Shown: positions 1,523 through 6,989 of the stretch, piece by piece | How positions within the stretch are numbered: the stretch's first letter is position 1 | Layout: each line of letters starts with the position of its first letter | The notes under the pieces: model-generated | The model's database searches: none | Told to the model about the DNA's origin: nothing | What the model saw: the letters and a program-made list of their open reading frames with translations, nothing else | Program-made: the position numbers and the translations under genes | Assembly (NCBI GenBank): GCA_944389535.1 | Contig: CALXMS010000001.1 | Span: 167,202-231,201, forward strand | Direction of reading: 5' to 3' | Length of the DNA: 64,000 nt | DNA from: an uncultured Alphaproteobacteria bacterium | GTDB lineage: Bacteria; Pseudomonadota; Alphaproteobacteria; Rs-D84

Positions 1523-1903
1523 ATGAGAATTAAATACATAGTTTTTGTACTGGCATTATCCGCCTGCGCATCAGTAAATCGCGGCAGTATTGACGATGCC
1601 ACGATACTAAATTGGGAAAACGAGTCTGTAACGATGGAACAATTTGTTCGTGACCATAAGGCATGCCTTGGTATAAACGAACCCTCATACATGCCCAGAT
1701 CTCGCATTGCTAAACTTTTATCGCCGAATCAAAGCAGTCTTATGCCAGATTGGGACGGTTTATGGGTAACTTTTCAGTCTAATGAATATAAAGACGTTGG
1801 ACAGCGGGCTTTATTATCGGTTCCACGAAATACTACGTCAAAATCAGTTGGTTCTTATCGTAAGTGTATGTTTAGACGTGGTTACTTGTTAAGAGCCAGC
1901 TAA
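1523..1903 (+). CDS. Small lipoprotein, function unknown
   Basis: This 126-residue protein starts with a short signal peptide and a lipobox (L-S-A-C at about residues 12-15), so it is probably anchored in a membrane facing the periplasm. No domain is recognised in the rest. The ATG lies 7 bases after a perfect TATAAT, so the mRNA may be leaderless. It is followed by ftsQ, which has its own similar promoter, so the two need not be cotranscribed. Confidence 0.6.
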   Translation: MRIKYIVFVLALSACASVNRGSIDDATILNWENESVTMEQFVRDHKACLGINEPSYMPRSRIAKLLSPNQSSLMPDWDGLWVTFQSNEYKDVGQRALLSVPRNTTSKSVGSYRKCMFRRGYLLRAS

Positions 1904-1954: not shown

Positions 1955-2638
1955 ATGAAACGTTCAATCTGGTTTTGGTTATATTTTAGCGCCGCAATAT
2001 TATTAGCTGTATACTTTGCTACACGGGTAATAATGGTTTGTTCCGGGCGAAGCGGTTTGTCTTATGTAAGAAATTTAACTATTTCTGCCGATATACCAAA
2101 CAAAGATTTAACGCCCATCGCTGCCGCTGCCGCATTATCTCCAGGTACGAAAGCGTATGGAAAAACTTTAGAAGAAATAAATTCTCGTATAGTATCCAGT
2201 CCTGGGGTAAAAAATTCCGCAACCAGAAGACTTCCATCTGGTAACTTAATCGTTCATGTAGAGCTTTATCAGGCTGTTGCTCAATGGACAGACGGCAATT
2301 TTTATTATCCTTTATCTGCTGATGGTACAATTGTAAACAAACCGTCAGAAGAAAGACACATAAACACCGTCGTTTTTCGGGGAAACGTACCTGATGATAT
2401 ATCAGAAATAACTAACACTGCCCATACCATGGCCAAAGATATTGATTATATAGAATTTATAGAAGACAGACGATGGAACATTCATACAATTGGTGGTATA
2501 ACGATTATGTTACCCGAAAAAAATCCTGCTGCTGCGATTGCTAGTTTAATGGTGTTAAACAATAACTATAAAATTTTATCAAAAGACATTAGCGCTATCG
2601 ACATGCGAGACGACGCAAGAATACTAGTAAAAAAGTAA
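1955..2638 (+). CDS. ftsQ: Cell division protein FtsQ
   Basis: This 227-residue bitopic protein has a short cytoplasmic start and one membrane segment (about residues 5-27). A periplasmic POTRA-like domain follows, with a pattern typical of FtsQ/DivIB (V-K-N-S-A-T-R-R-L-P-S-G-N-L-I-V-H-V, then a stretch ending in D-G-T-I-V). FtsQ links FtsA-bound early divisome components to FtsL/FtsB and septal peptidoglycan synthases. It ends one base before the FtsA fusion gene, the classic ftsQ-ftsA order, which supports both calls. It is a little short for an alphaproteobacterial FtsQ. Confidence 0.8.
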   Translation: MKRSIWFWLYFSAAILLAVYFATRVIMVCSGRSGLSYVRNLTISADIPNKDLTPIAAAAALSPGTKAYGKTLEEINSRIVSSPGVKNSATRRLPSGNLIVHVELYQAVAQWTDGNFYYPLSADGTIVNKPSEERHINTVVFRGNVPDDISEITNTAHTMAKDIDYIEFIEDRRWNIHTIGGITIMLPEKNPAAAIASLMVLNNNYKILSKDISAIDMRDDARILVKK

Positions 2639-2639
2639 A

Positions 2640-4433
2640 ATGAACCTTTCTGATTCATCTTTTCTGTGTTTAGATATCGGCACCAGTGGTGTAAGAGGGA
2701 TTGCACATCGCATACGTGGCGGACATTTAACAAAATCATCTATGTATGAAGTAGACAGCTTTGATACAGTATTTGCTTTAAAATCAGTTATAGACGAATT
2801 AGAAAACCAAATCGGCGACAGGTTTGATAATGCATATATAACAGGTAACTTTGGGCCCACAATTTTTAAAATAAGCCCTAAGGCAAAAAAATGGCGTGGG
2901 GAACACAAAATAACTCAATCAGATATAGGTTCAATGATTTCGCAAATTGTTCCTCCAGAGAATTATTATCCATTTCATATTATTCCTTTACGTTACAGTA
3001 CACCAAGCATACAAAAATTATATACCCCAATAGGTTATACTGACACGGGAATAACGGCTATATTTGGTTCAATTTTTTATTCATCTGAATCAATATCAAA
3101 GATTACGTCAATATTACATGCTGCTCACATACAACCATATTCTTTTTATGACCCTCATTTTTTGCAAAATGCTGTATACCATGAAAAAAAGCATACAGAC
3201 ATGTATATTGATTTCGGCGCCCAATTTACAAGCGTTTCTATATGGTTAGACAATGGTCCTATATTTTTTCAGAAAATTCCCGTCGGTGGGACAGATATAA
3301 CAAATGACATTGCACAAAAGCTAAACATTGCGTTTGATGATGCAGAACGTATAAAAAGAAACATAGGAAGTCTTATGCCAAAAGAAATGGACAGGTTTAC
3401 CCCGGCAGATACCGCATATGACTTTTCTCGGGCAGACGTAAATAATATAATAATTCCAAACATCATAGAAATCTGCGATAGAATAAAAGACGCCAGTTCT
3501 GTCCCTTTCAAACATGCAATGCCGAATAATATAATAATATCTGGGGGCGGTTCAGAAATGGAATCAATGACAGATTTTATTGAAAATTTATTTGGTATAC
3601 CAGTCAAAAACATAGGTCGAACGGCATCGGTGCAAGCCTTATCTGAGTACATATGGGCAACAGAATTACCTCATAGAAAAGCATATGAGGCACGTACGAC
3701 AAGAATAAAAAACGCATCAAATAAAATTATTTCCATATTTAAACCGCGGCATAAAAAAAAGAAAATACAATTCATACCAATCATGCCAAGTACATTATGT
3801 TTTGATATGAAAAACGACGCAACTTATACTATGTTTAAATCTGGTGGCATATCCATGATTCACGTTGACATAATGGATGGTTTATACGTTGAAAATATTC
3901 GTGGTAGTATATCAGAACTAAAATATATTAGATCACACACCTTAGCACACTTACATGTACATTTGATGACAGAAAGTCCAGACATATGGGCAGAAGAAGC
4001 CATTAATGCAGGTGCAAATACAATTATAGTTTCAACCAACACGTCTGGTGTACGTGCTGCATTACGAACGATACGGGCAGCTGGTCGTCGTGCAGGTGTG
4101 GCATTAAATCCAGATTCTTCAATAGAAATACTGAAACCTATAATCCGTGAAATTGACGAGATTATGGTTATGACTGTAACCCCCGGTGCCGCCGGTCAAA
4201 AATTTGATGATTCTTGTTTACATAAAATATCTGCTCTTGCAGCGACACGAAAAAAATACGGTTTAAAATATTTAATTTCTGTTGATGGCGGAATAAATGC
4301 GGATAGCGCACAAAAATGTTGGGCGGCTGGTGCAGATTTGTTGGTAAGCGGTTCTTATTTAGCAAACAACTCTGACTTTCCTTTGGCTGTACAAAGTCTT
4401 TTAAAACGTAAAACAGAAAAAAGCTCCTTATAA
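2640..4433 (+). CDS. ftsA-rpe: FtsA fused to ribulose-phosphate 3-epimerase
   Basis: One unbroken 597-codon frame. Residues 1 to about 350 are an actin-like FtsA: phosphate-1 loop LDIGTSGVRG at 11-20, second phosphate loop around 190-200, and an SGGGS adenosine motif at 301-305. Residues 354-375 form a basic amphipathic stretch like the membrane-targeting tail that normally ends FtsA. A complete RPE barrel follows directly (about 377-590). It keeps the four expected metal/catalytic ligands: H408 and D410 (HVDIMDG), H441 (HLM) and D549 (VDGGIN). The VTPGAAGQ phosphate loop is at 513-520. FtsA anchors FtsZ at midcell; RPE converts ribulose 5-phosphate to xylulose 5-phosphate. The joined form would tether a pentose-phosphate enzyme to the divisome. 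No ftsZ follows. Confidence 0.9.
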   Translation: MNLSDSSFLCLDIGTSGVRGIAHRIRGGHLTKSSMYEVDSFDTVFALKSVIDELENQIGDRFDNAYITGNFGPTIFKISPKAKKWRGEHKITQSDIGSMISQIVPPENYYPFHIIPLRYSTPSIQKLYTPIGYTDTGITAIFGSIFYSSESISKITSILHAAHIQPYSFYDPHFLQNAVYHEKKHTDMYIDFGAQFTSVSIWLDNGPIFFQKIPVGGTDITNDIAQKLNIAFDDAERIKRNIGSLMPKEMDRFTPADTAYDFSRADVNNIIIPNIIEICDRIKDASSVPFKHAMPNNIIISGGGSEMESMTDFIENLFGIPVKNIGRTASVQALSEYIWATELPHRKAYEARTTRIKNASNKIISIFKPRHKKKKIQFIPIMPSTLCFDMKNDATYTMFKSGGISMIHVDIMDGLYVENIRGSISELKYIRSHTLAHLHVHLMTESPDIWAEEAINAGANTIIVSTNTSGVRAALRTIRAAGRRAGVALNPDSSIEILKPIIREIDEIMVMTVTPGAAGQKFDDSCLHKISALAATRKKYGLKYLISVDGGINADSAQKCWAAGADLLVSGSYLANNSDFPLAVQSLLKRKTEKSSL

Positions 4434-4446
4434 AAAGGAGCTTTTA
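4417..4446 (+). terminator. Terminator of the ftsQA run
   Basis: The stem AAAGCTCCTT / AAGGAGCTTT encloses the TAA stop of the FtsA-RPE gene and is followed by a short T-run. It is close enough to form as translation ends. Confidence 0.6.
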
Positions 4447-4588: not shown

Positions 4589-4993
4589 TTAACAACCTTG
4601 TATTTTTAACGTCCGCTTATTCCCATCGCCAGATAAATAAATATGTATTGTATCAGAAGGTAATATATCAGAAGCAATTTCTGGCCACTCTATCAAAGTA
4701 ATATCATTTGCAATGGCATAAGGTAATCCTATTTCTGTTAACTCAGATTTATCTTCTATTCTGTATAAATCAAAGTGAGAAATACCGTCATAATTCTGTA
4801 CGATTGTAAAAGTTGGACTTGACACAACTGTATTTTCACCTCTCAATGCTTGAATTATGGTTCTTGCAATTTCTGATTTACCCATACCTAAATCTCCGTG
4901 AAGAGCCACTATACAAGGAGTTTTTAAAGTTTTAGCGAAATTACGCGCCCAATTTCTTGTTTCTTCTATATTATTTAATTCATATGTTTTCTG
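4589..4993 (-). CDS. tsaE: tRNA threonylcarbamoyladenosine biosynthesis ATPase TsaE
   Basis: A 134-residue protein of the normal family length. The Walker A loop GDLGMGKSE lies near residue 33 and the ending IEWPE...Y motif is typical of TsaE (YjeE). With TsaB and TsaD it makes t6A at position 37 of ANN-reading tRNAs. The start is set at 4993 because GGAG sits seven bases upstream. A longer in-frame start at 5023 would overlap uvrB and has no ribosome site. It follows uvrB by 7 bp and is probably cotranscribed with it. Confidence 0.88.
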   Translation of the reverse strand, partial: QKTYELNNIEETRNWARNFAKTLKTPCIVALHGDLGMGKSEIARTIIQALRGENTVVSSPTFTIVQNYDGISHFDLYRIEDKSELTEIGLPYAIANDITLIEWPEIASDILPSDTIHIYLSGDGNKRTLKIQGC

Positions 4994-5000
4994 CATATTT

Positions 5001-6989
5001 TTACTCCAACAATAATAAATCATCTTCTAATTTATGAACTGCATCACGCAATTCAGCGGCCCTTTCAAATTCTAGATTTTCTGCCGCATCGCGCATCTGT
5101 TTTGTTAACTTTTTAATTTCTTTACGTAAAGTATCAGCATCCATTACACCGTCAGTCGTATAAACAAAACGACGCTTTTTATCGGTCTTTTCTTGCTTAT
5201 CCGTAACTTCATTAAAGACTGCTTTTGTAACAGTTCGTGGCGTAATATTATTAGCTTTATTATACGCCATTTGTTTTGCCCGACGACGATTTGTTTCATC
5301 TAAAGCGGCGCGCATAGAATCAGTAATCGTATCTGCGTATAATATTACCCGTCCGTTTGCATTTCGTGCGGCCCGACCAATAGTTTGAATTAATGATCGC
5401 GTAGAACGTAAAAAACCTTCCTTATCTGCATCCATAATTGCAACTAATTCACATTCTGGTACATCAAGACCTTCTCGTAACAAATTAATACCGACAAGTA
5501 CGTCAAATTTACCAAGACGCAAATCACGAAGTAATTCTATACGTTCTAATGTTTCTATATCACTGTGCAGATATTTTGCTTTTACCCCATTTTCAACAAA
5601 ATAATCCGTCAATTGCTCTGCCATTTTTTTAGTTAACGTTGTAACTAAAACTCTACCTTCTACTTTCTTAACCTCATCTAATAAATCATCTACCTGATGA
5701 GTTGTTGGACGAACTTCACAAACAGGATCTAATAACCCAGTAGGTCTAATAACTTGCTCGGACACGATACCACCGGATTGTTCAAGCTCCCATTCTGCCG
5801 GGGTTGCAGAAACGAAAATTGTCTGTGGACGAAGGTTATCCCATTCTTCAAAAGTTAATGGTCTATTATCAATACATGCAGGCAGACGAAAGCCATATTG
5901 TGACAATGTTTCTTTACGCGCTCTATCACCACGAGACATCGCACCAATCTGTGGTACAGTTACATGACTTTCGTCTATAAATAGAATCGCATCTTTCGGC
6001 AGATATTCAAATAACGTAGGTGGCGGTTGCCCAGGTGCACGTCCTGATAAATACCTTGAATAATTTTCAATTCCACGACAGGTGCCTGTTGATTCCATCA
6101 TTTCTATATCAAAATTAACTCTTTCACGCAGTCTTTGCTCTTCTATATACTTCATATTTTTATGAAAATATTCTAACCGTTCTTTTAAATCATTACGAAT
6201 TTCACCTATGGCCTGCAATATTGAAGGCATTGGCGTCGCATAATGCGTATTCGGATATACCGCAATTCTGTCTAGCTGACGTAATTTGGCACCAGTTAAT
6301 GTATCAAATTCCCAAATTTCTTCTATTTCGTCGCCCCAGAAAGATAATTTCCAGCCTCTGTCTTGAGAATGCGAAGGAAACAAATCTAATGTATCCCCAC
6401 GAACGCGAAAACAACCGCGTTCAAACGCCATATCATTTCGCTTATACTGAATATCTACCAACGCATGCATTACATCTGTAATACCAATTTTGTCTCCGAC
6501 TCGTAAAGTTACCTTCATTCCAGAATATTGTTCTGGTGCCCCCATACCATAAATAGACGAAACAGAAGAAACAACAATTACATCACGTTCTTCAAGCATT
6601 GCCCGCGTTGCACTATGGCGCATTCTATCTAGTTGCTCGTTTATGGAGGCGTCTTTATCAATATATGTATCAGTAGTCGGCAGATATGCTTCTGGCTGAT
6701 AATAATCGTAATAAGAAACGAAATATTCTACATGATTATTTGGGAAAAAAGCTTTCATTTCTGTATACAACTGCGCAGCCAGAATTTTATTTGGAGCCAT
6801 AATCATAGCAGGTCTACCTAGTTCTGCAATTACATTGGCCATTGTAAAAGTCTTACCTGAACCCGTTACACCCAACAATACCTGACTAGGGCGACCATCG
6901 CGAACACCCGCAACCAATTCTGAAATTGCCTGCGGTTGATCACCCATAGGTTTATAATCACTTTGAAGATCAAATATTTTTTTATTCAC
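5001..6989 (-). CDS. uvrB: Excinuclease ABC subunit B
   Basis: A full-length 662-residue UvrB. The Walker A loop GVTGSGKT is near residue 40, the beta-hairpin region [12 protein letters not shown] follows, then the helicase motifs DESH and SATP and the QTIGRAARN motif VI. The C-terminal UVR domain (about 620-655) contains the [11 protein letters not shown] repeat that contacts UvrC. It verifies DNA damage in nucleotide excision repair. It is transcribed away from the AsmA-like gene across only 46 bp, with tsaE downstream. Confidence 0.97.

Follow-up and report, generated by a model that had tools for sequence, protein, structure and literature searches.

A gene fusing FtsA to ribulose-phosphate 3-epimerase marks an alphaproteobacterial family that appears to have lost FtsZ

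FtsA is taught as the membrane anchor of FtsZ. The FtsA proteins known from structures (TIGR01174; Thermotoga maritima 1e4g and 4a2a, Vibrio 7q6f, E. coli 7q6d) share an actin-like fold with three nucleotide motifs, are associated with the ftsQ-ftsA gene order and carry an amphipathic helix at their C-terminus, and ribulose-phosphate 3-epimerase (RPE; PF00834; 2fli, 1rpx) is a TIM barrel with four ligands and phosphate-binding glycines, elsewhere a stand-alone soluble enzyme. All these traits recur in the fusion described here, in which, however, the helix is internal and RPE follows it, C-terminal to an FtsA moiety that bears the membrane helix, while the FtsA half scores under the equivalog cut-off and the host organism seems to have no FtsZ partner. 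Chlamydiota, Planctomycetota and Wolbachia J are also FtsZ-less and keep FtsK and FtsQ, with MreB and RodZ in Chlamydia (PMC10591338, PMC12283558, PMC7029139, PMC6956297), but they usually lose ftsA along with ftsZ: the two genes were lost together in Chlamydia and Wolbachia J (PMC10591338), and, according to PMC12283558, Chlamydiota and part of the Planctomycetota have lost ftsZ and, save for few exceptions, ftsA too. The Rs-D84 family, by contrast, keeps ftsA, in fused form, and such retention of FtsA without FtsZ, and fused, is unusual.

The window, i.e. the whole stretch of 64,000 nucleotides analyzed here, holds the following features at this locus (coordinates are those of the window).

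1523..1903, + strand: small conserved putative lipoprotein gene upstream of ftsQ (ORF; same order in OX097180.1)
1955..2638, + strand: ftsQ, same operon, one base upstream of the fusion (FtsQ_DivIB_C, E 2.9e-8; order-level FtsQ HMM, 1.9e-26)
2640..4433, + strand: ftsA::rpe fusion gene, one open frame, 597 aa
2640..3683, + strand: FtsA-type actin-like half, residues 1-348, with a 1C-like region (Pfam FtsA/MreB/PilM, TIGR01174, AlphaFold model)
3666..3773, + strand: amphipathic helix 343-367 and flexible K/R-rich linker 368-378 (hydrophobic moment, K/R counts, model)
3774..4409, + strand: RPE half, residues 379-590, with ligands H408, D410, H441 and D549 (profiles, alignment, model)
4419..4445, no strand assigned: palindrome resembling a terminator, at the 3' end of the fusion, where the genes converge (listed on the - strand, near-palindromic)
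4589..6989, - strand: convergent neighbours bounding the operon (ORFs), which from their translations we take to be a tsaE-like ATPase (4589-5023) and uvrB (5001-6989)

The fusion gene runs from ATG to TAA without internal stop in its ORF translation, and profile matches place the FtsA-type half N-terminal and the RPE half C-terminal within the 597-aa protein. The initial annotation had read FtsA as continuing into RPE without a stop, and a real, single-frame gene was indeed confirmed; both domains look functional. The AlphaFold model (mean pLDDT 90) shows an FtsA fold joined to an RPE barrel by a long helix (343-367) and a flexible basic stretch, the relative placement of the two domains being unreliable at a pTM of 0.61. 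Upstream, the putative lipoprotein gave no match in a Pfam search; downstream, the tsaE-like/uvrB gene order next to the fusion recurs in OX097180.1.

The FtsA half was recognized by Pfam FtsA (PF14450) above cut-off at residues 189-323 (E 1.8e-17) and by TIGR01174 over residues 47-338 (85.5 bits, E 3.7e-24), the latter score falling short of the equivalog cut-off of 175.85 bits, so that this half is a divergent FtsA-type domain and is not classed as a strict equivalog. Its model superimposes on the FtsA structures 3wt0, 1e4g, 7q6f and 4a2a with a TM of about 0.7, and the actin-fold nucleotide motif sites D12/G14, D191/G193 and G302/G303 are invariant in 50 relatives. At the junction, the modelled helix 343-367 is followed by residues of pLDDT <50 (369-376). 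The linker (residues ~349-378) carries a basic amphipathic helix with a hydrophobic moment of 0.60 in the source fusion and a median of 0.63 in the 50 relatives, to be compared with 0.62 for the helix of E. coli FtsA, and it carries about 10 K/R for 1 D/E in these relatives. In line with the earlier claim that the join lies right after a basic amphipathic FtsA tail, the helix 343-367 is thus predicted to correspond to the C-terminal membrane-targeting helix of FtsA.

The RPE half matched Ribul_P_3_epim (PF00834) at residues 381-574 (156 bits, E 8.2e-46) and exceeded the cut-off of NF004076 (178 bits vs 165), while reaching 160 of the 213 bits of the TIGR01163 equivalog cut-off; its model superimposes on Streptococcus pyogenes RPE (2fli) with a TM of 0.91. 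The four residues proposed as metal/catalytic ligands, H408, D410, H441 and D549, were correctly assigned: they align with H34, D36, H68 and D177 of E. coli Rpe and are invariant in 50 relatives. A second rpe, which the initial annotation had suggested looking for, was found neither in the source genome (G000, 8% of which is masked), where the fusion is the one rpe detected, nor on the complete unmasked chromosome OX097180.1. In six other genus genomes (G085, G105, G107, G116, G132 and G137), the fusion is accompanied by one more rpe-like match that stands alone. Searches found transketolase and rpiB but no transaldolase, in agreement with PMC12306168. The fusion would supply the cell's RPE activity, giving transketolase its xylulose-5-P from ribulose-5-P.

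In all genus loci fetched (L001-L111), one uninterrupted frame of about 590-630 aa encodes the fusion. Numerous studies and hosts are represented among these loci; they were gathered by two search routes, L001-L031 and L032-L111 representing partly the same genomes and L001/L031 the window itself. At the family level, the fusion was matched in 88 of 89 genomes (GTDB family f1, 8 genera, 32-82% identity), nearly all matches covering both halves; G113 gave no match, and the match in G099 starts only at residue 45. The single TAA scored in the family match table is the gene's own stop in the genus loci checked. The fusion was absent from five sister families of order Rs-D84, and in 123 other alphaproteobacterial genomes sampled, each of the matches listed covers one half only, the list stopping at the weak end, where FtsA-only matches lie. 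A search of the available literature yielded no paper that treats FtsA and ribulose-phosphate 3-epimerase together with both fusion and cell division, which, together with these matches, agrees with the earlier remark that no described protein of this kind was known. An A8 run sits at the join, so that an assembly or frameshift artefact at this A-rich junction had to be considered; no relative, however, shows a stop or frameshift near codons 370-380, which had been named as evidence against the fusion, and the identical frame, which recurs in every genus locus across many independent studies and assemblers and with variable linker sequences, refutes such an artefact, whose probability we regard as negligible. 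Relatives with two separate genes, the other sign that had been named, do exist as adjacent ftsA and rpe in sister families, but never inside the fusion family, which points to an ancestral arrangement and not to an assembly error. A separate internal RPE start at M382 was rejected, this position being M or L across relatives and not conserved. On this comparative evidence, the fusion is family-defining in GTDB family Rs-D84 (Alphaproteobacteria), which includes Candidatus Enterousia. The relatives of Candidatus Enterousia are gut bacteria with tiny genomes.

FtsZ was matched by TIGR00065 in none of 35 genus genomes and in none of 20 further family genomes representing all 8 genera (best stray E 0.023), whereas the same profile matched all 24 order and class outgroups, 22 of them above the cut-off. 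No match to PF00091 above cut-off was found among 59 genus genomes, and the sister families of order Rs-D84 have FtsZ. Since 72 kb of the source genome is masked as N (C3:32001-104000, leaving ~92% searchable), so that this genome by itself cannot prove absence, the searches were repeated on OX097180.1, the chromosome of Ca. Enterousia intestinigallinarum (G083), a single contig of 1,001,484 bp with no N, tiled for the search. There, an FtsZ HMM built from order and class sequences, used also with the degenerate form of G038 and with HMMER filters off, found nothing above noise; none of the ribosomal and RNA polymerase genes tested is missing, and a replicon missing genus-wide is thus an unlikely cause of the absence. 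In sister genomes, e.g., G037 and G040, ftsZ adjoins phage-like connector- and terminase-like genes, and this cluster is shared across the order (source genome C2:66000-77300; L208, L210). No ftsZ was found among its homologues in the source genome (C2:67-76 kb), and a divergent FtsZ hidden in this syntenic cluster was rejected, as the place holds what we take, by sequence recognition, to be connector/terminase-like genes and a DnaB-type helicase.

In G038, of sister family f5, an FtsZ-like protein (L174:6522-7787, - strand) scores 31 bits and has no recognisable T4 glycine loop; this genome gave no rpe match and a weak FtsA match (E 4e-4), and its FtsZ-like protein is a possible intermediate in FtsZ decay. 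This degenerate protein and the masked 72 kb would favour an FtsZ that is present but too divergent, or carried on a segment missing from all assemblies; against this stand the gap-free chromosome, where an HMM including the degenerate form found nothing, and the lack of a hit in any family genome tested. We consider a hidden FtsZ highly improbable, and the searches indicate that GTDB family Rs-D84 has lost FtsZ.

Other division and wall proteins are retained in the family, profile searches having found FtsQ, FtsK, FtsW, FtsI, RodA, MrdA, MreB, MreC and Tol-Pal parts, as well as a RodZ-type HTH_25 protein; the mSphere paper on these genomes noted RodA, MreB and MrdA and did not discuss FtsZ (PMC12306168). 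MraY, MurG, FtsW, FtsI, RodA and MrdA are kept in both G000 and OX097180.1, and MurA, MurC, MurD, MurE, MurF and a clear Ddl are missing from both, i.e., wall polymerization without obvious precursor synthesis; PF08245 was absent in 12 family genomes. The source genome also encodes a short 424-aa HSP70-type actin-fold ATPase (C5:72754-74025, - strand; PF00012, residues 8-230) with a weak MreB match. It should also be mentioned that Ffh is cut down to a protein with only the M domain (PF02978 only; G000 C6:10218-10754, + strand, equal to L173:10218-10754; G083:221599-222216, - strand), that neither FtsY nor an SRP54 GTPase domain (PF00448 above cut-off) was found in 12 family genomes, including the gap-free chromosome, and that, in the ~92% of the source genome that is unmasked, no SRP RNA scored as high as the Rfam gathering threshold. 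This is apparently a bacterial family without SRP GTPases.

As to its origin, ftsA and rpe are separate genes in the sister families of the order, where found. They adjoin in G035, G036 and G039, where the amphipathic-helix end of FtsA and its stop lie 0-20 nt before rpe, and in G035 ftsQ precedes them (ftsQ-ftsA-rpe); in sister family f4, other sequence separates the two. Loss of a stop between such neighbours is therefore the simplest origin of the fusion, and the terminal helix of sister-family FtsA probably survives in it as the linker to RPE. In G048, a stop-to-stop frame of 891 aa (L143:6049-8721, - strand) has rpe at its end and overlaps a long same-strand ftsA frame, which may simply reflect overlapping frames in GC-rich DNA. 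Among the relatives, median omega was 0.23 for the FtsA half, 0.13 for the RPE half and 0.41 for the linker, rough values since dS is near saturation, and mean pairwise identity was 54, 73 and 32%, respectively; both halves are under purifying selection, the FtsA half evolving faster than RPE. In trees of each half, the fusions are monophyletic, with a very long stem branch for the FtsA half; trees meant to place each half within the order had long branches and gave no resolved position for either.

Mechanistically, ftsQ, ftsA and rpe would have been adjacent operon genes in the ancestor; ftsA would have lost its stop codon on the family stem, turning the membrane-binding helix of FtsA into a linker to RPE, and ftsZ would have been lost on the same stem. 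The fusion would still be bound to the membrane as an actin-like, nucleotide-binding scaffold, recruiting and organizing FtsQ, FtsW, FtsI and FtsK for division without FtsZ, with help from MreB and RodZ. RPE activity would be delivered from the membrane by the enzyme half, a passenger that is catalytically intact and that may, by associating with itself, help to cluster the scaffold. We give an even chance to this combination of stop-loss, FtsZ loss and an FtsA half that still serves division while carrying the cell's RPE; membrane binding, the scaffold role, enzyme activity and any help from RPE oligomerization are what we infer for it. The division role is suggested by the operon position, the kept motifs and membrane helix, purifying selection and the co-retained late division proteins. 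Constraint on the FtsA half could, however, come from folding or RPE tethering instead of division, which leads to the main rival, a passive fusion in a shrinking genome, where the stop was lost without benefit, the RPE half is what matters and the FtsA half is mainly a tether or stabilizer with little or no part in division. The adjacency of ftsA and rpe in sister families, the faster evolution of the FtsA half, its long stem branch and the disappearance of FtsZ are all in line with such a vestigial half, yet this half is nowhere truncated, its nucleotide-motif residues are invariant, its membrane helix is kept, and it stays beside ftsQ and is under purifying selection, so that we hold this rival to be unlikely, although to be taken seriously.

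The initial annotation had pictured the enzyme hanging from the division ring and linking pentose-phosphate flux to septation. The former image has to be abandoned, since a family without FtsZ offers no canonical ring to hang from; the latter, in which RPE would sense or channel flux at the division site and tune septation, found no direct support. The fixed fusion with both halves intact, which provides the complete chromosome with its sole RPE, does imply that the enzyme and the division protein are obligately co-localized, but regulatory elements or ligand sites other than those of an ordinary RPE were not seen, there is no Z-ring to couple to, and the gene adjacency in sister families offers a neutral route; we therefore judge metabolic coupling to be distinctly improbable. 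It is quite unlikely, too, that the fusion is a replacement division organizer, in which RPE self-association would cross-link membrane-bound FtsA filaments and do the job of the Z-ring. To return to the FtsA half as a retained division scaffold, its divergence and very long stem branch suggest that its partners may have changed, and since a single fusion event and a single loss of FtsZ fall on the same stem, the link between them is suggestive and not statistical.

The fusion is a clean marker of GTDB family Rs-D84, and a concrete protein for testing division without FtsZ. A whole family that has FtsA but apparently no FtsZ, and FtsA in one covalent form only, would be a natural separation of the FtsZ-independent role of FtsA, such as activating FtsQLB/FtsWI, from anchoring. 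It would also be one more independent instance of FtsZ being lost, this time in bacteria that have kept wall-polymerizing enzymes. With FtsZ lost and FtsA kept only in fused form, these cells must divide in a way that has not been described.
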